Shown one piece after another: positions 1 through 8,606 of a stretch of DNA of 28,399 nt; the stretch's first letter is position 1, and every line of letters starts with the position of its first letter. The stretch spans positions 1 through 28,399 of the IMG/VR virus record IMGVR_UViG_3300032315_000070; one strand, 5' to 3'. Both the position numbers and the translations under genes were made by a program. This DNA comes from a virus. The notes beneath the pieces were generated by a model. That model did not search any database, was not told the DNA's origin, and saw only the letters and a list, made by a program, of their open reading frames with translations.

Positions 1-749
1 CGACCGCCTAATCCGGTTCCAGAAGTGCATCGTCCTGCCCCGCCACCTCCACAGCCGATACCGCCTCTACCGCCAGTTCCTCCAGTAGTAGAAGAACCGC
101 CTCCACCACCAGAACCGCCCACACCTATGAGAATCGGCTGCGTTAAAAAATATCCGTCTCTACCATCGCCGCCTGTTGCGCCAGTTACGCCACCAGCCAA
201 AGTTGGATAGCCATAGTTTGCTGCGACTTGCCCACCAGCGTCAGCAGTTGTGGATGCCCCACCAGAGCCACCACTTAAAAATGTAGTAGTCGATGCAGTG
301 ATAGCCGCTCCGGGACCTACCCCGTTTTGACCAGCAACAGAATTAAATATCCCAGCAGCGCCAAAATAATTATTGCTAAATGCTGCGCCAGCGGTATTGC
401 TTGCAGCACCGTTTGCGGTTAGTAAGTTATAACCAGTTCCGTCTTTTGCTTGGTAAACGATTGTTGTGTTGCCACCAGCGGCATTAGACGCACCACCCGC
501 GCCAACAGAAACTCGCAATACATCTGGGATAAAGATAGCTGGGCCAATCCATTCCGTCACAGCACCAGAACCTCCACCACCACCGCCCGCAGAGGTAGTG
601 CTTGGTCTACCTCCTGCACCACCTCCAATCAGCAGCATCCTGACCATTGACGCGCCGCGAGGCTTTACCCAATCGCGAGCCGTACCGCCGCCGTAGAACT
701 CTTGGTAGTTCGCACCTTGTGGTGTTGGCGTATTAAATATGTCTAGCAT
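1..749 (-). CDS. Glycine-rich tail-tip/adhesin-like protein, copy 3 (3' end off the window)
   Basis: An uninterrupted minus-strand frame starts with ATG at 749 and runs off the left edge, giving at least 249 residues. The N-terminus has the pattern PQGANYQEFYGGG followed by DWVKPRGAS and a hydrophobic strand MVRMLLIGGGAGG. The rest is glycine-rich with segments such as FNSVAGQNG, TASTTTFLSGGS, FLTQPILIGVGG and GGIGCGGGG. The same order of motifs occurs in the next two genes upstream (754-1383 and 1385-2029), so the three are tandem paralogues. Glycine-rich proteins of this kind at the end of tail modules are usually tail-tip or receptor-binding proteins; that role is inferred from family type and position. 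The gene begins 4 bases after the preceding stop, with a GGTGA ribosome-site-like sequence. Confidence 0.85.
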   Translation of the reverse strand, partial: MLDIFNTPTPQGANYQEFYGGGTARDWVKPRGASMVRMLLIGGGAGGRPSTTSAGGGGGGSGAVTEWIGPAIFIPDVLRVSVGAGGASNAAGGNTTIVYQAKDGTGYNLLTANGAASNTAGAAFSNNYFGAAGIFNSVAGQNGVGPGAAITASTTTFLSGGSGGASTTADAGGQVAANYGYPTLAGGVTGATGGDGRDGYFLTQPILIGVGGSGGGGGSSTTGGTGGRGGIGCGGGGAGRCTSGTGLGG

Positions 750-753
750 CGCG

Positions 754-1383
754 TCACCATGTAATTATTACTACGAGGCCATCGCCACCATTACCACTGC
801 CCGGATTAGTCGAACCACCACCGCAACCCCTGCCACCACGACCAGTACCGTTTCCACCAACTCCGGAAATAATCGGTTGTGTTTGAAAAAAACCTTGTAT
901 TGCAGTGTTGTAGCCGTAGTTTCCGACTACTCCCGAGCCATTACCGCCACCACACAAAAAAGTTGTCGCGCTTGGGGGTACACTACCACCTGCTCCAGAC
1001 TGTCCAGCTATTGACTGAAAAAATCCCATACAAGAGAAATAATTCGAAACACTTGCGCTTCCTGCGGTTTGCCCCAATGCAGTTTGTGCTTGCAGTAATG
1101 TATACCCACTTCCATCTTTAGCTTGATATTGAACTTCTGTATCAGTAACTTGGTTATTGGAACCAGCTCTAACTCTTAAAACATCTGGAATAAGAAACGC
1201 AGGCCCCATAAAGTTGGTTACTGCACCAGAACCGCCACCATTATTGCTGTCACCTGTACCTCCAGCACCAATCAAAGTGAACCACACGAAAGATGCACCT
1301 TGTGGTTTTACCCAATCAGAATTCCGGTAAAACATTTGTACATTAGCGCCCTGCGGCGTTGGGTAATTTATTGGGTAGCTCAT
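754..1383 (-). CDS. Glycine-rich tail-tip/adhesin-like protein, copy 2
   Basis: This 209-residue protein opens with PTPQGANVQMFYR, then DWVKPQGASFVWFTLIGAGG, then a segment MGPAFLIPDVLRV, a central AKDGSGYTLL region, and FFQSIAGQSG followed by SATTFLCGGG. The C-terminus is a glycine-rich tract with GCGGGS and ends in a hydrophobic LVVIITW. It is closely similar to the partial protein to its left (shared PQGAN, WVKP, IPDVLRV and QAKDG segments) and more distantly to the one at 1385-2029. The start is 1 base after the stop of the upstream gene, so translation is probably coupled. Likely a virion surface or tail-tip component; no enzymatic motif is visible. Confidence 0.87.
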   Translation of the reverse strand: MSYPINYPTPQGANVQMFYRNSDWVKPQGASFVWFTLIGAGGTGDSNNGGGSGAVTNFMGPAFLIPDVLRVRAGSNNQVTDTEVQYQAKDGSGYTLLQAQTALGQTAGSASVSNYFSCMGFFQSIAGQSGAGGSVPPSATTFLCGGGNGSGVVGNYGYNTAIQGFFQTQPIISGVGGNGTGRGGRGCGGGSTNPGSGNGGDGLVVIITW

Positions 1384-1384
1384 A

Positions 1385-2029
1385 TCACCAACTCGCTATT
1401 AAAACCATGCCGGGGCCACCCGGTGCACCGGCGTTGTTTCCGCCACCACAGCCTATTCCACTTGGGCCACCACCCGCAGTGCCGACTCCAACAATGATAG
1501 GTTGCAACTGAAAGAATCCACTAATATTTCCACCACTATTCGCATATCCGTAATTTGAGCTTCCACCGTTGCCACCGCCACCGCTAAGAAATGTTGTTGC
1601 TGATGGAGTAATTCCACCACTCGTGCCACTTTGTCCAGCGATTGATTGGTAAAATCCTGACGCTGCGAATTGATTTGCAGCCGTTGCTGTACCACCAGTA
1701 CCGGGCGATCCAAATTCCGCCGTTAATAAGACAGTTATTGTTGAAGCAGTAAATCTTGCACCAACTCTAGTGCTATTTCCCGGAATTGGAACGTCAACTA
1801 CTAAAATGTCTGGAACATGTTGCGCTGCTCCATACCAAACAGTCACAGCACCCGAACCACCGCCGGTAGTCCCATCGCCTGTCCCTCCCGGGCCAATCAA
1901 CAGCATATAAACATGGCTGACGCCTCTTGGCTTTTCCCAAGATTTACTGGATGTAGTTAATGCGCCCGATCCATAAAAAATCTGGATGTCGCAGTTCTGC
2001 GGTTGGGCGATGTTAAATAAATCAAGCAT
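1385..2029 (-). CDS. Glycine-rich tail-tip/adhesin-like protein, copy 1
   Basis: This 214-residue protein has the family pattern: MLDLFNIAQPQ, an IFYGSG segment, WEKPRGVSHVYMLLIGPGG, VPDILVVDVP, FYQSIAGQSG followed by SATTFLSGGG, FFQLQPIIVGVG, and a terminal Gly-rich tract with GCGGGN ending MVLIASW. It is the most divergent of the three tandem copies in its middle (residues about 75-120), while the ends are conserved. That is the pattern expected if the ends are structural and the middle varies. The start overlaps the upstream stop as TAATG. A tail-tip or adhesin role is inferred from composition and place at the end of the tail module. Confidence 0.87.
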   Translation of the reverse strand: MLDLFNIAQPQNCDIQIFYGSGALTTSSKSWEKPRGVSHVYMLLIGPGGTGDGTTGGGSGAVTVWYGAAQHVPDILVVDVPIPGNSTRVGARFTASTITVLLTAEFGSPGTGGTATAANQFAASGFYQSIAGQSGTSGGITPSATTFLSGGGGNGGSSNYGYANSGGNISGFFQLQPIIVGVGTAGGGPSGIGCGGGNNAGAPGGPGMVLIASW

Positions 2030-2214
2030 TACTCAGCCCATGACGGTTTTGTAGCGTTATCGTTGACGCAGGTGTATTCCACAATCTCTTCACCAATCAA
2101 AACACCGTCAGCGCGATACACGCCGATGTAGCTACCGTTAGCGTCAAGATGTGCATACCCCTGTGAGCCATCAGAAAACTGAAGCTCAAACCAGCTATCA
2201 GTCTCGCGCCACAT
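2029..2214 (-). CDS. Small phage protein, 61 aa, unknown function
   Basis: A short protein starting MWRETDSWFELQF, rich in aromatic and acidic residues. It has a run of probable beta strands (GYAHLDANG, YIGVYRADG) and ends KPSWAE. An ATG 18 bases further upstream would overlap the preceding gene by 17 bases. I prefer the ATG at 2214 because GGAG lies about 9 bases before it and it clears the upstream stop. It sits between short tail-fibre genes and overlaps the next gene by TAATG, so it is probably a small virion or fibre-associated protein. I do not recognise a named family. Confidence 0.75.
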   Translation of the reverse strand: MWRETDSWFELQFSDGSQGYAHLDANGSYIGVYRADGVLIGEEIVEYTCVNDNATKPSWAE

Positions 2215-2215
2215 A

Positions 2216-2653
2216 TTAGTAATCTCCTGCAACGCAAACCACCGAGTAACCAGTACCGGCTGAACCCGTCGATGTACCGAATGTCACATACAGCAGGTAG
2301 TTTGCATTGAGAGCGAAGTTGATCGGCAACTCAAAAACAGAAGTCGCAGCAGTCTGCGAAACTGTCACCGCAGGCAGCGTAATCTCATCGTACAGCCAAG
2401 TGTTCGTGGCGTTAGTCGTAGTGCTTGACGAGACAAAAATACGGCACACAGTCGCTGCAGGTGAACCCACAGGACGGAAGCGAACCTTCTGAATATACGA
2501 GCCGTTCGAACCTGCCGTGAACAGCTTGTAATTTGTACCAGTACCGTCGAGCGCGGTATTAGCGGTAGGGCCTACGATGAGGCCTGAGTTGTTCTGGGCT
2601 ACCGATTGAACGTCACCGGTAATCGAATAAATAGGTGCTGTATTTGCTGGCAT
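2216..2653 (-). CDS. Small virion/tail-fibre-associated protein, 145 aa
   Basis: The protein starts MPANTAPIYSITGDVQ and is rich in Thr, Ser, Ala, Asn and Gly, with alternating hydrophobic residues throughout. This suggests an all-beta, jelly-roll-like domain (for example VRFRPVGSPAATVCRIFVSS and NYLLYVTFGTSTG). A strong ribosome site (AAGGAG, 7 bases before the ATG) supports the start. It lies in a run of short fibre-type genes, so it is most likely a decoration or fibre domain on the tail. No catalytic motif is visible and the exact family is not recognised. Confidence 0.8.
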   Translation of the reverse strand: MPANTAPIYSITGDVQSVAQNNSGLIVGPTANTALDGTGTNYKLFTAGSNGSYIQKVRFRPVGSPAATVCRIFVSSSTTTNATNTWLYDEITLPAVTVSQTAATSVFELPINFALNANYLLYVTFGTSTGSAGTGYSVVCVAGDY

Positions 2654-2663
2654 GATTTACTCC

Positions 2664-2933
2664 TTAAGGAAGAATACAGTTAATTGCGATGGCTCTGACG
2701 AGACCAAGTGGTGTTCCTGACGCAGAAGGTGCAGAGGATACCCAAGCCGAACCATTTGACGTAAGAAGGTTCCCCGCAGTTCCGGGGCTTGTTAGCCCAG
2801 TACCACCATTGGCTGCGGACAATGCGCCAGTAAACGTATTGCTTGCAAATGCAATCGTCTTGTTCGTCAGCGTTGCCGTACTGGTTGCGGTCAGTACGTT
2901 AGTTGGCGTAATGATTGAAGATAGTGTAGTCAT
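2664..2933 (-). CDS. Short tail-fibre-like protein, 89 aa
   Basis: This short Thr/Ala/Gly/Ser-rich protein contains LTNKTIAFASNTFTGALS followed by ANGGTGLTSPGTAGNLLTS and NGSAWVSSAPS. The same 'GGTG...NGN/GNLLTSNG..W' module occurs in the 393-residue protein at 4171-5352 and in the long fibre at 5363-7660, and is typical of phage tail-fibre repeats. The gene has a GGAG site 7 bases before ATG. It looks like a single fibre module made as a separate polypeptide, possibly a detached piece of a longer fibre. Confidence 0.8.
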   Translation of the reverse strand: MTTLSSIITPTNVLTATSTATLTNKTIAFASNTFTGALSAANGGTGLTSPGTAGNLLTSNGSAWVSSAPSASGTPLGLVRAIAINCILP

Positions 2934-2936
2934 GTA

Positions 2937-3290
2937 TTACTCCGGTTTAACCCAAGATGTCGTTGCTTCGTCCCATGAATACATACCACCATCTGTGGGC
3001 ATAGGCGTTGGAGGTTGCCAGTTAGCATCATCGTCCAGCGTCCAGCTTTGGTATGGCTGTGGAGGTATGAACGCATCGCGTACAGCGTTGTAGGTATAGC
3101 CAACACCAGCGTAGTGCTTACGAATATTGCCGTTGTAGCTAGTTTGTTTCCAAGTGCCGCCGAACAGTGACTGACAGAATGCGATGCCCTTCGCTTCAGA
3201 CTCCACGCCGTTGTCCATAAGTTCGTTGTTGTTCACCACGATCACCTGCGTGACCACGTTGTTCTCATCAAGTTGAGCAAAATGAGCCAT
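2937..3290 (-). CDS. Conserved small phage virion-region protein (cyanophage-type family), 117 aa
   Basis: The sequence MAHFAQLDENNVVTQVIVV, then an EAKGIAFCQSLFGGTWKQTS segment, then IRKHYAGVGYTYN and IPPQPYQSWTLDDD, ending in YSWDEATTSWVKPE. I recognise this as a conserved small protein common in marine T4-like cyanophages and other aquatic phages, usually near tail-fibre or structural genes. Its function is not known to me. It is 117 residues with no signal peptide or membrane segment. It lies between the glycine-rich protein and the short fibre gene. Confidence 0.87.
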   Translation of the reverse strand: MAHFAQLDENNVVTQVIVVNNNELMDNGVESEAKGIAFCQSLFGGTWKQTSYNGNIRKHYAGVGYTYNAVRDAFIPPQPYQSWTLDDDANWQPPTPMPTDGGMYSWDEATTSWVKPE

Positions 3291-3298
3291 GTTTTACC

Positions 3299-4174
3299 TT
3301 AAAACGTGATGGAACCGGAACCTGTCCAAGTATATATTTTGTACCCGCCGGTATTGGTAAAAGTTGGTGATCCTGTTGTTGATGCCGCATTAGCAAAAAT
3401 GTCGGGGTAGCTTATGATGACAATACCGGAGCCGCCAGTGCCGCCTGATGAATGACCGCCACCACCGCCGCCTCCTCTATTTACGGTTCCTGCTGTTCCA
3501 GCGCTAGAATGAACAGCACCGTTACCACCACCGCCAGAGCCGCCTGCGCCACCTGTTTGGTTAAACGTACTACCACCACCACCGCCAGCATAGGTAACGG
3601 ACGATCCAGATATTGAGGACGCAGTGCCGTCTCCACCTTTACCGCCAGCGTTGGTTTGACCACCTTGACCAGCTTGACTTGCGCCACCACCACCGCCAGC
3701 GTTCAGGTTGCTGTCCGTGCTTTGATGAGCGCGACCAGCACCGCCATTTGTACCCTGCGCGGGTGATGTAGAAGGCGTGTTGCCGCTGCCGCCAGCGCCG
3801 CCGGGGCTTGAGCCGCTTTGCCATACGTTGCCGCCGCCGCCAGAGCCACCATTACCACCCGCAACACCGCCTGCGGATTGATCGACAGTAGTCGCACCAA
3901 AACCACCCCCGGCGGATGTAATCGTGCTAAAAACAGAGTTCGATCCAGAACCACCAGCAACCCCACCTGCGCCAACGGTAATCGTATAGGAAGTACCAGC
4001 CGTTACTGACAATCCAGTTCCAGTTCTAAATCCACCAGCGCCGCCGCCGCCACCGCCGTATCCAGCAGAACCGCCACCACCGCCACCACCACCAGCAACA
4101 ACAAGGTATTCGACTGTTGACGGGCTTATCGCAGCGCCTACTGACGCAACAACACCTAGAAGAATGCCGCTCAT
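3299..4174 (-). CDS. Glycine-rich tail-tip protein, 291 aa
   Basis: The preferred start (ATG at 4174) overlaps the upstream stop as ATGA. A start 27 bases earlier would overlap the upstream gene by 31 bases. The protein begins MSGILLGVVASVGAA, continues with TVEYLVVAGGGGGGGG, and is then dominated by Gly-rich segments to about residue 230, ending in IVIISYPDIF and a TNTGGYKIYTWTGSGSITF domain. The 'VEYLVVAGGGG' opening, poly-Gly body and IVIISYP closing strand are typical of the glycine-rich domain of phage tail-tip and receptor-recognition proteins. A host-recognition role is therefore likely but inferred. Confidence 0.88.
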   Translation of the reverse strand: MSGILLGVVASVGAAISPSTVEYLVVAGGGGGGGGSAGYGGGGGGAGGFRTGTGLSVTAGTSYTITVGAGGVAGGSGSNSVFSTITSAGGGFGATTVDQSAGGVAGGNGGSGGGGNVWQSGSSPGGAGGSGNTPSTSPAQGTNGGAGRAHQSTDSNLNAGGGGGASQAGQGGQTNAGGKGGDGTASSISGSSVTYAGGGGGSTFNQTGGAGGSGGGGNGAVHSSAGTAGTVNRGGGGGGGHSSGGTGGSGIVIISYPDIFANAASTTGSPTFTNTGGYKIYTWTGSGSITF

Positions 4175-5352
4175 GTCAGACCCGTACCAGAAATGATCCA
4201 CTCAGTGCTAGTGACTTTTATGCAAGTCGCTATGCCATTCGCCGCTAGTGTTCTTGATCCAGTTGTGCCTGCACCAGCTAAACGCATCGTGTCTGTCGTA
4301 ATTGCGATTGTTACGACACCCGCGCCGTTTTGGTTAATAAAGGTAATTGCAGTTCCGATTGCGTATGGAACGCTGCTATTTGCGGGGATTGTGAAAGTTC
4401 TAGCTGTCGTATCAGCGGATGGGTGGAGGACATGTTTACCAGAGTCAGTCGCCACCAGTGTATAAGCAGCAGATTGTGAGTTCTGAGGAATATTTAGGTA
4501 ACCAACCGTGACGTTCTCACCGGGATCAGGCAGCGTAAAAGTACGGCTTGCGCTCAATGTGGCTGGAGTCAAAGTCACCGCATAAGATGACGAGCCACCT
4601 GCACGACCTGCAACCACAATCGCATCCTGCGTCGAGGCTGCTTCTGAGCGAATTGCATTAGCTGCTCTGAAGGTCTGAGCCGCAGTAAAGATGTTCGATG
4701 CGTTAGTTACCGCAGCAATACCACCATTACCGCCTACCTGAGCATAAACTTCCCAAGTCGTGCCGTCGTAGACTAGCTGAACGCTAACGCCTGAAATGTC
4801 GCAAACTAAGTCTTGAGCGACGTTAGAAATTGTCGATCCATTCCGACCAACGGTCAGATTATTCGTGCCCCAAACCCCACCAGCATCTGCCACGACAACT
4901 TGCGCTCCGGTGGCAGGGGTTGCAGGCAAAGTAACAGTAAACGCCCCGCCAGTCGTATTGGCAAGAACACCCTCTTTATCCTGCGTTGTGTAGTTGGCAG
5001 TCTTAACAACATAAGTCAGACCGCCCGCAGGCAGAACTGCCGATGTCCACGTTGTGCCGTTCGAGGTCAGAACATTTCCGTTCGTGCCGGGTGCCACAAA
5101 CTGAACAGCGCTAGTTCCGTTGCCAAGGATGACGTTATTCAGAGTCAGGCTAGTCTGACCCGTACCGCCAGCACTCGCAGGCACTGTCTTCCAGCCGATT
5201 ACTTGGACCGCGTTCGTATTATCCTTGTAGAACAGCTTGCCGTCGGTGATGTTTATCGCAAGTTCACCACTGGCTAGATTGCCAGCCGTAGGCGCAGCCG
5301 CTGCGGTCGTGCTGTTGTAAAGTTGGATCGGCGTAAATCCGGCTTGTGCCAT
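4171..5352 (-). CDS. Tail-fibre protein, 393 aa
   Basis: The N-terminus MAQAGFTPIQLYNSTTAAA followed by LASGELAINITDGKLFYKD is a familiar phage tail-fibre start: GELAIN/DGKLFYKD marks the head of many fibre proteins. Then come GGTGQTSLTLNNVILGNGT repeats, and a ligand- or trimer-type beta domain with KTANYTTQDKEGVLANTTGG. A second copy of the 'AYTLVATDSGKHVLHPSAD' type follows near residues 295-315. It ends ITSTEW-like (VTSTEWIISGTGLT). A strong AAGGAG site precedes the ATG. It is probably a trimeric fibre on the tail. Confidence 0.88.
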   Translation of the reverse strand: MAQAGFTPIQLYNSTTAAAAPTAGNLASGELAINITDGKLFYKDNTNAVQVIGWKTVPASAGGTGQTSLTLNNVILGNGTSAVQFVAPGTNGNVLTSNGTTWTSAVLPAGGLTYVVKTANYTTQDKEGVLANTTGGAFTVTLPATPATGAQVVVADAGGVWGTNNLTVGRNGSTISNVAQDLVCDISGVSVQLVYDGTTWEVYAQVGGNGGIAAVTNASNIFTAAQTFRAANAIRSEAASTQDAIVVAGRAGGSSSYAVTLTPATLSASRTFTLPDPGENVTVGYLNIPQNSQSAAYTLVATDSGKHVLHPSADTTARTFTIPANSSVPYAIGTAITFINQNGAGVVTIAITTDTMRLAGAGTTGSRTLAANGIATCIKVTSTEWIISGTGLT

Positions 5353-7660: not shown

Positions 7661-7995
7661 TATGGTGCCGTGCTAATAACATCCAGATTCCCGTTGTTCT
7701 CAGGATCATCTGTGTTTTGGTTAGTCGATAGTACAAACCCAGTTGTCGTCACAATATCATTCGGATCTACCGCCACGCTAACATCAGGGCGCGGGAACCG
7801 AATCGTGATCCGCTCAGTCTTTCTAGCCGGCAACCGATACGGGTCAAATTGGTCTTTACAGTTATGACTACAAACCATCAGCCCCGGAAAGTTCGGGTCT
7901 TTTGACAGGTCGGCGTGCGGACGCTTCATCTTACAGCGATCACAGACTGCAATCGCTATGTCCGAGTAACCTAGTGTGTCAAGAAACCTCGGCAT
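7660..7995 (-). CDS. Zinc-ribbon-like conserved phage structural-region protein, 111 aa
   Basis: The sequence starts MPRFLDTLGYSDIAIAVCDRC. It carries a CDRC pair (about residues 18-21), then DLSKDPNFPGLMVCSHNCKD (second Cys pair about 42-46), then FDPYRLPARKTERITIRFPRPDV. This Cys-X2-C/Cys-X3-C layout suggests a small metal-binding domain. The 'DPNFPGLMVC...DPYRLP' pattern is one I know from uncharacterised small proteins in phage tail modules. The start overlaps the stop of the HNH gene as TAATG, and its own stop overlaps the fibre start. A virion or tail-assembly role is likely from position only. Confidence 0.85.
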   Translation of the reverse strand: MPRFLDTLGYSDIAIAVCDRCKMKRPHADLSKDPNFPGLMVCSHNCKDQFDPYRLPARKTERITIRFPRPDVSVAVDPNDIVTTTGFVLSTNQNTDDPENNGNLDVISTAP

Positions 7996-8606
7996 TAGTG
8001 CGTCCTTCCTTGAGCAAGTAAAGTCGCCTTACGAGCTGCAACTCTCTTCGCAATCTGCTCGGGAGTCTGCTTTCTACCTTTTGCAGCCAATGACAGTTTT
8101 TCTTTAACCTCTTGAGAAACAGGCCGTCCTTTATTGGTTGGCTCCCGCCCAATTAACCACGGAGTTGAGCGCGGCCTCCCCTTCAAAGGGCTTACATATC
8201 CCTCTGGGCGAGTTCTGCCAAGCGCCAGACACTCAAGTTGCTTCTGAGTTGCCTGCCTTCCTGTCAAAGATTTTTGCATCTTTTTTATGGATTCTGGAGA
8301 CTTTTTCTTGCCTTTTGCGGCAGCAGACATCTTGGCTTTAGTCTCCTCAGACTTCGGCTTTCTCATGTACGGCCTTGGGATGCCCTTTTTGTTTGGGATT
8401 AAATCATCCTTCAGACCGTTGATGATGCGGTTGTACGCCCATCCATCAGCCGGATTCCCATACATTTTGAAGCGCACCCAGTGGGCAATCGCATGATCAA
8501 TCGGATGCAACAGCACAAGATTTTCCGGCGAATCATCCCCTCCCTTGTGCCTCGGGACAATGTGATGATTGTGGAAGCCCTCCAACAATTTCATAATTGT
8601 TGTCAT
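7995..8606 (-). CDS. Free-standing HNH homing-type endonuclease with NUMOD3 repeats, 203 aa
   Basis: Residues 11-43 hold an HNH signature: FHNHHIVPRHKGGDDSPENL followed by VLLHPIDHAIAHW, with the paired histidines, the Asn and the downstream His in place. The C-terminal two thirds is Lys-rich and has NUMOD3-type modules (KPKSEETKAKMSAAAKGKKK at about 83-102, a second with KKMQKSLTGRQ at about 108-118, and RPVSQEVKEKLSLAAKGRK at about 161-179). These are DNA-binding helices of phage homing endonucleases. It starts as ATGA over the stop of the connector gene and ends as TAATG over the next start, so it is cleanly embedded in the operon and needs no promoter. It probably cuts DNA of competing phages and spreads its own gene; that is known for the family and inferred here. 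Confidence 0.92.
   Translation of the reverse strand: MTTIMKLLEGFHNHHIVPRHKGGDDSPENLVLLHPIDHAIAHWVRFKMYGNPADGWAYNRIINGLKDDLIPNKKGIPRPYMRKPKSEETKAKMSAAAKGKKKSPESIKKMQKSLTGRQATQKQLECLALGRTRPEGYVSPLKGRPRSTPWLIGREPTNKGRPVSQEVKEKLSLAAKGRKQTPEQIAKRVAARKATLLAQGRTH

Follow-up and report, generated by a model that had tools for sequence, protein, structure and literature searches.

A three-gene cassette of TNF-like, glycine-rich fibre-tip proteins as a candidate heterotrimeric receptor-binding head of phage tail fibres

Background

Phage fibre tips are usually regarded as homotrimers encoded by single genes. The virus DNA described here carries three similar glycine-rich genes in a row at the end of a tail module, and the question is what a phage makes of three. 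The initial annotation proposed that such tandem copies broaden host range or act as a reservoir for recombination. Here we ask how constant the array is in related phages, how its members vary and exchange, and which genes accompany it.

Three paralogous subunits in one head are known from C1q, an animal immune protein in which three paralogous TNF-like subunits build a heterotrimeric recognition head carried by a fibrous stalk. This would be an analogy to the array only. Among viruses, the TNF-like/glycine-rich (TG) fold is found in the tip of the Pam3 fibre. In Pam3 gp24 the TNF-like and the glycine-rich domain make up the distal end of a homotrimer, which faces the receptor, and diversity rises toward the tip (PMC9608196). 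Heterotrimeric tails are described in two other sources. In the virophage DSLV2 three consecutive tail genes are reported to encode a 1:1:1 heterotrimer, as judged by native PAGE, EM and AlphaFold3, and a homotrimeric counterpart exists in a Synechococcus phage (PMC12724248). DSLV2 resembles the array in its three consecutive tail genes but differs in that these are gp37-like fibre proteins of a virophage. The consecutive genes gp35/36/37 of mycobacteriophage Mysterious encode beta-sandwich proteins of 203-209 aa that form a heterotrimer by cryo-EM (PMC13252515, preprint). In this case six heterotrimers line the baseplate bowl, and the part available makes no mention of a glycine-rich tip. No description of the present cassette was found in the literature searched, including the available parts of PMC9608196, PMC12724248, PMC13252515 and PMC13033339.

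The array and its neighbours

The window is the whole stretch of DNA analysed, 28,399 bases. It is an entire virus record, so the window edge is the contig edge and the sequence beyond the last array gene is visible only in relatives. ORFs were called by simple start/stop rules. Transcription runs in the order g1, g2, g3, and the array therefore begins at 2029. The features are as follows.

4171-5352: fibre-like protein
3299-4174: Gly_rich_2 protein whose C-terminal extension differs (54.9 bits against the Pfam family, cut-off 24.3)
2937-3290: 117-aa protein, phrog_7759
2664-2933, minus strand: 89-aa tag-carrying fibre protein
2664-2705, minus strand: C-terminal tag GLVRAIAINCILP plus stop, the end of the 89-aa fibre protein
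2216-2653, minus strand: 145-aa beta-sandwich protein, the putative adaptor
2029-2217, minus strand: 62-aa protein, one-base overlap with g1, candidate hetero-assembly factor
1385-2029, minus strand: g1, first TNF-like/glycine-rich adhesin subunit, 214 aa, the most variable of the three
754-1383, minus strand: g2, second subunit, 209 aa (single-chain model pLDDT 89.6, pTM 0.86)
3-749, minus strand: g3, third subunit, 249 aa read; stop and last residues missing at the contig end

The three paralogous genes that the initial annotation recognised are real. All three ORFs are present, and a search of the record with g2 recovers g1 with 50% identity (E 8.7e-41) and g3 with 55% (E 3.9e-29). Class profiles score the other two array genes at 313 and 363 bits (HMMER); composition correction was on, so the kinship exceeds mere glycine composition. 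The common N-terminus, the W-x-KP-x-G and LIG-x-GG motifs and the pattern of conserved ends are present. The tail-tip or adhesin character first suggested is backed by the fold match of g2 and by the fibre context.

Against Pfam PF21722 (Gly_rich_2) the g3 protein of the window scores 13.9 bits, below the cut-off of 24.3, and g1 and g2 have no match. Across the array family a match at E<=0.1 was obtained for 24 of 33 members, the best at 3.3e-11, a count based on E-values. Neither g2 nor one g3 relative found a tblastn match in 50,697 phage records. The same collection contains a distant relative, Rhodobacter phage RcOceanus gp23, so that search misses distant kin.

The 62-aa, 145-aa and 89-aa genes follow one another upstream of g1 with hardly a gap. 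Neither Pfam nor PHROGs gave a credible match for the 62-aa or the 89-aa protein of the window, or for relatives of the adaptor; the window adaptor itself reaches phrog_19291, of unknown function, at E 0.012. Many beta-sandwiches match the adaptor model (pLDDT 75) with Z 6.7-8.8, and for this reason no specific structural relative is claimed.

A second fibre module (2937-5352) stands directly upstream of the cassette, comprising the genes at 4171-5352, 3299-4174 and 2937-3290. The protein at 3299-4174 had been pointed out as a fourth glycine-rich protein close to the array. It is nearby and distantly related, but it is not an array copy. With composition correction it falls below zero against all three class profiles (45, 53 and 104 bits without it), and four genes separate it from g1. 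The negative corrected scores and the separate fibre module rule it out as a fourth copy; by its sequence it is a distant relative and a putative separate adhesin of the other module.

Copy number and order are constant

Viral contigs were scanned with g2, g3 and g1 as queries and one locus per contig was kept; after removal by hand of duplicate loci of one contig, 79 of 111 sources were retained, the window included. Three copies were found in 62 sources, two in 7 and one in 10. Three consecutive paralogous genes, in the same direction and fixed order, occur in 57/57 arrays with both ends more than 60 bases inside the contig, a set chosen as three-copy arrays with both ends inside; the 17 lesser sources were then checked individually and all are cut within 103 bases of the end where the missing copies are expected. 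At 98% over all three genes, 51 of the 57 complete arrays are distinct. The scans with adaptor queries kept the best 80 of 127, 429 and 313 relatives, and the copy-number counts are samples. A scan that used the adaptor as query in place of the array genes gave 14 new loci, and all seven with enough downstream room have three genes.

Position in the array mostly predicts class. Exceptions are the first gene of L034-L036, which ties between g1 and g3, and that of L067 and L068, which scores best as g3. In five of the seven adaptor-found loci at least one gene scores best with the profile of an unexpected class.

The first two genes after g3 (107 genes) were scored in the focal arrays as possible hidden fourth copies. 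Five encode long, mildly glycine-rich proteins with 61-72 bits without composition correction. Two pass 100 bits, in L094 (389 aa) and L067 (503 aa), each with another gene between it and g3. In L147 a 505-aa glycine-rich gene stands one gene past the array, and an incomplete one is found at the corresponding site of L149, both behind a fibre-like gene. These longer genes of L067, L094, L147 and L149 probably belong to a separate adhesin module, and the ceiling of three applies to the uninterrupted run only. The gene right after g3 is of 31 kinds among 56 loci.

Variable copy number is not supported, since all 57 complete arrays have three genes. Constant number without diversification had been named in the initial annotation as evidence against its reading; the number is indeed constant, yet diversification is strong.

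A conserved putative adaptor lies between different fibres and variable subunits

In the set made up of the 57 arrays and the window, a full-length adaptor could be placed in 53. In 53/53 focal loci the protein just before it ends in a tag of the pattern G-[LTI]-[VSTA]-[RK]-A-x(2,3)-N-x-[IV]-[LF]-[PC]. The fibre proteins that bear this tag are diverse: the 52 of 53 that were cleanly called range from 59 aa in L034, where a contig end is close, up to 1426 aa. N-terminal BLAST linkage places the fibres in 16 groups. A 62-aa-type gene was detected by motif in 52 of the 57 focal arrays. Mean pairwise identity over the 53 loci is 85% for the adaptor, 52% for g1, 55% for g2 and 61% for g3.

Fold and variation of the subunits

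The best solved match of the g2 model is chain Qb of the Bxb1 tail tip (9D93; Bxb1 is a siphovirus), at Z 13.9 over 153 aligned residues with rmsd 2.6 and 28% identity. The Pam3 fibre (7YPX, 7YFW) follows at Z 12.6 and 12.3, ahead of ALK and LTK, whose TNF-like/glycine-rich domains match at Z 7.2-10.3. Among the matches listed, those outside the phage-tip and ALK/LTK group have Z 3.4 or less. The phage matches (Z 12.3-13.9) cover 153-158 of the 209 residues, and the g2 model can confidently be read as a TNF-like plus glycine-rich fibre tip. Adhesins of the T4-superfamily gp38 type, as in S16, have a polyglycine lattice tip borne on gp37; glycine-rich motifs are present in the array proteins, and S16 gp38 was not among the fold matches listed. 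A PDB sequence search with focal profile A5 gave one match at E 0.39.

The likeness to Pam3 gp24 extends to the TNF-like and glycine-rich tip and the variable distal loops. The differences are that Pam3 gp24 is a single gene and a homotrimer, with its own helical shaft and a separate chaperone, gp25. The array has three genes, an adaptor and a tag instead, and the g2 model is without the N-terminal helical shaft of the Pam3 type, the sole helix listed being at 116-119.

Sequence entropy in the array family is low in the first strands and in the C-terminal strand. It peaks in loops at about 73-92, 103-115, 129-137, 159-164, 176-185 and 191-199, the last two peaks not being seen in g3. This bears on the proposal that only one or two subunits contact the host and that g3 is a scaffold, cap or chaperone. 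The highest mean identity of the three (0.61 against 0.52 and 0.55) is that of g3, and its entropy is low at 176-199, where the g1 and g2 loops are very variable. All three classes nevertheless carry the shared motif set and the variable loops 73-92 and 103-115, and we consider a purely supporting role for g3 quite improbable.

The classes differ in a patterned way. Class-specific residues lie at 32/34/36, 57/59/61/63 and 203/205/207 and alternate with shared residues at 33/37, 56 and 206, the pattern that one face of a few strands would give. Of the positions that every class conserves, 7 of 8 class-specific ones are in strands, versus 13 of 51 shared ones (p 0.0014). Enrichment of class-diagnostic positions in strands is found in the focal family (p 7e-5) and in a second array family (p 0.003), while a third gave p 0.20. 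The comparison families comprise 9 and 8 related loci. Seven diagnostic positions overlap between the three families (p 8.5e-5), under a uniform null that ignores conservation, and we give this overlap little weight as evidence.

Subunits are exchanged between phages, rarely between copies

Among 1378 pairs of 53 genomes, 15 combine one array gene of 85% identity or more with another of 65% or less; merging near-identical genomes leaves 10. In L008 and L062 g1 is 93% identical and g2 47%. Even so, the three subunits have correlated distances (Mantel r 0.40-0.49). The phages that swap subunits have partner subunits only about 45-72% identical, so any interfaces between subunits must be tolerant. 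L018 and the window share a capsid protein at 94% identity, yet their g1, g2 and g3 are 62%, 61% and 73% identical.

Seven near-duplicate genomes were dropped before a sliding-window comparison of the copies. Only 42 of 6678 sliding windows (some were skipped for gaps) were nearer another class than their own, and one had a donor in the same genome. Half of the foreign-looking windows (21/42) fall in L067 g1 and L013 g2.

These results bear on the reservoir role assigned to the array at the outset, in which copies would recombine locally or change number and so broaden host range. Such a reservoir could account for the g3-like distal part carried by both L013 g2 and L067 g1. It is opposed by the three copies in every complete array and by the small share of foreign-looking windows, which also counters frequent gene conversion between copies. 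A reverse transcriptase (PF00078), which the genome of a diversity-generating retroelement would carry, was matched in 0/26 records, many of them fragments, against 3 of 14 controls. The positions are largely separate lineages, and we judge the reservoir reading very improbable. What stands of the recombination claim is that single genes are exchanged between phages, and this exchange is mostly position for position.

Repeated origin of the three-gene state

A tree of 38 members separates into three position clades of 12, 13 and 13 rows. In a tree of 75 proteins, which uses 10 focal arrays and omits 3 duplicates and 8 loci whose rows were divergent or very long, the focal genes group in a single clade (100/98), separate from every other protein. 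Tree tests reject all first copies as one clade (p 8e-6) and likewise all third copies (p 5e-54). A single ancient triplication for all arrays is thereby rejected, and three genes must have been attained more than once. A quick tree of 158 proteins (7 focal arrays used, 9 loci omitted) keeps the focal clade (95) and unites the three copies of L295 (97); other triple arrays share positional clades in it. The copies of L188 form their own clade in the smaller tree but are partnered with other arrays in the 158-protein tree, and L188 is therefore not counted, which lowers the number of independent triplications. Judged from these trees, the three-gene state was reached at least twice, and probably more often. 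Positions appear to have been mostly fixed once three was reached.

One, two or three TG genes behind the adaptor

Scans with wider adaptor profiles, together with the annotated records L111 and L112, gave 151 loci, of which 120 were counted after 8 cut loci and 23 duplicates had been set aside. TG genes were called with a purpose-built profile at 100 bits or more without composition correction and at least 19-20% glycine, a lax rule that lets other glycine-rich proteins pass as well; the window protein at 3299-4174, for example, scores 137. So defined, the genes directly after the adaptor include no TG gene in 48 loci, one in 28, two in 14, three in 30 and four or more in 0. The gene after the adaptor is thus of another kind in 48/120 loci, and other head types may dock there in the same way.

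A 62-aa-type gene stands ahead of the first TG gene in 1 of 28 loci with one TG gene, in 10 of 14 with two and in 26 of 30 with three (Fisher p 1.3e-11). The focal and wider sets of 62-aa proteins are homologous (hhalign 96.5%, E 7e-10); 46/46 distinct focal proteins match the wider profile at E<=0.01, and 23/37 do so in reverse.

A cultured single-gene relative is RcOceanus gp21-gp23. Its fibre has a tag-like end, as judged by eye, followed by an adaptor homologue (gp22, 41% identity) and the TG protein gp23. Unlike the array, it has just one TG gene, of 296 aa, and lacks a 62-aa gene between gp22 and gp23. RcOceanus gp23 aligns to focal profile A5 at hhalign E 2.4e-17, where composition bias is possible, and passes the Gly_rich_2 cut-off at 34.6 bits.

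Several individual loci deserve mention. The adaptor family is common in viral contigs, with 429 and 313 relatives in two scans. A genome scan yielded two adaptor loci. Adaptor modules with one TG gene each also occur in the bacterial records of Zavarzinella formosa DSM 19928 (L308) and a Geobacteraceae MAG (L307), and are possibly prophages. Of the single-gene loci, L307 alone carries a 62-aa-type gene. In Pseudanabaena phage Pam2 (L112) the genes next to the adaptor bear implausible animal-toxin or receptor product names, which are probably automatic mislabels of fibre proteins. One middle TG gene in the pair L191/L192 has 464 aa against about 300 usual, which suggests that just this subunit of the triple array has a further domain.

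The carrier phages

Genes of portal, terminase and capsid type occupy other parts of the window. The identity of the portal is 61% with that of a Manatee Spring phage, 50% with those of Caulobacter phages RW, KcrB, RLK and GB2A, and 31-32% with those of pelagiphages HTVC023P and HTVC027P. Of 18 portal-matching records 16 are about 50-65 kb, from which it follows that roughly half of the genome is probably absent from the window record. The window capsid protein has a relative in 5 of 16 other carriers, four at 33-40% identity, many of the records being fragments. The window portal was matched in 3/16 carrier records and PF03354 in 1/16. The sheath family PF04984 was matched in 0/25 carrier records, as was PF12236, which no control matched either. 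At 7995-8606 the window has a 203-aa ORF with an HNH-like start (HIVPRHKGGDDSPENLVLLH); we take this motif to mark perhaps a homing endonuclease inside the structural module.

A proposed heterotrimeric head

The best-supported reading, and one that we hold to be somewhat probable, is that g1, g2 and g3 together make up a single heterotrimeric head with which a tail fibre binds its receptor. The fibre trimer would end in the short tag, onto which the 145-aa adaptor would dock. The 62-aa protein may help to build or orient the asymmetric head. One each of g1, g2 and g3 would then pack through their TNF-like sandwiches, probably 1:1:1, with the glycine-rich loops pointing outward to contact the host. 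Physical contact, the 1:1:1 stoichiometry, receptor binding and the roles of tag, adaptor and 62-aa protein are what we infer from the genomic arrangement and the models. The heterotrimer is favoured by the ceiling of three, which would fit the threefold symmetry of a fibre, by the class-specific residues that alternate along strands and by the 62-aa-type gene found with most multi-gene arrays, and it is supported by the three-gene precedents DSLV2 and Mysterious gp35/36/37.

Several observations weigh against this reading. The 14 two-gene loci would need a 2:1 head or another arrangement. The swapping of subunits between phages with dissimilar partners would call for tolerant interfaces. The strand enrichment was not significant in the third array family, and clean position classes are contradicted by L034-L036, L067/L068 and the five deviating adaptor-found loci. 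For the 62-aa protein in particular, 36/44 multi-gene arrays have the gene but 8/44 lack it, and one single-gene locus carries it.

Alternatively, each gene may encode its own homotrimeric adhesin, set on different fibres or stacked serially, with different receptors. The TG-type relative Pam3 gp24 is a homotrimer, and each class diversifies alone and is swapped alone between phages. However, only one tag carrier and one adaptor gene precede the array, and none of the 57 focal and 120 wider loci has an uninterrupted run of more than three. The class-specific residues alternate along a few strands, and the g2 model is without the N-terminal trimerising helices of Pam3 gp24. We consider three homotrimers unlikely.

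The heterotrimeric head can be extended to a broader picture, which we hold to be nearly as likely as not. The array would be a widespread and transferable plug-in adhesin for any tag-ended fibre, the 62-aa protein would break the threefold symmetry, receptor diversity would come from subunits being swapped singly and position for position, and separate lineages would have halted at three genes because a fibre offers three seats.

Conclusions

The array proteins appear to bring a known fibre-tip fold into a three-gene cassette that, with its tag, adaptor and 62-aa gene, is more orderly than first thought. If the heterotrimeric head is true and common, one virion would present a combinatorial binding surface, and prediction of host range from a single receptor-binding gene would fail for such phages. 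The versions with one, two and three genes around a shared adaptor would offer a natural series from homotrimer to heterotrimer, and the 62-aa gene is a testable candidate for a symmetry-breaking factor. That shafts with different starts share one C-terminal tag suggests a general rule by which fibre modules dock.
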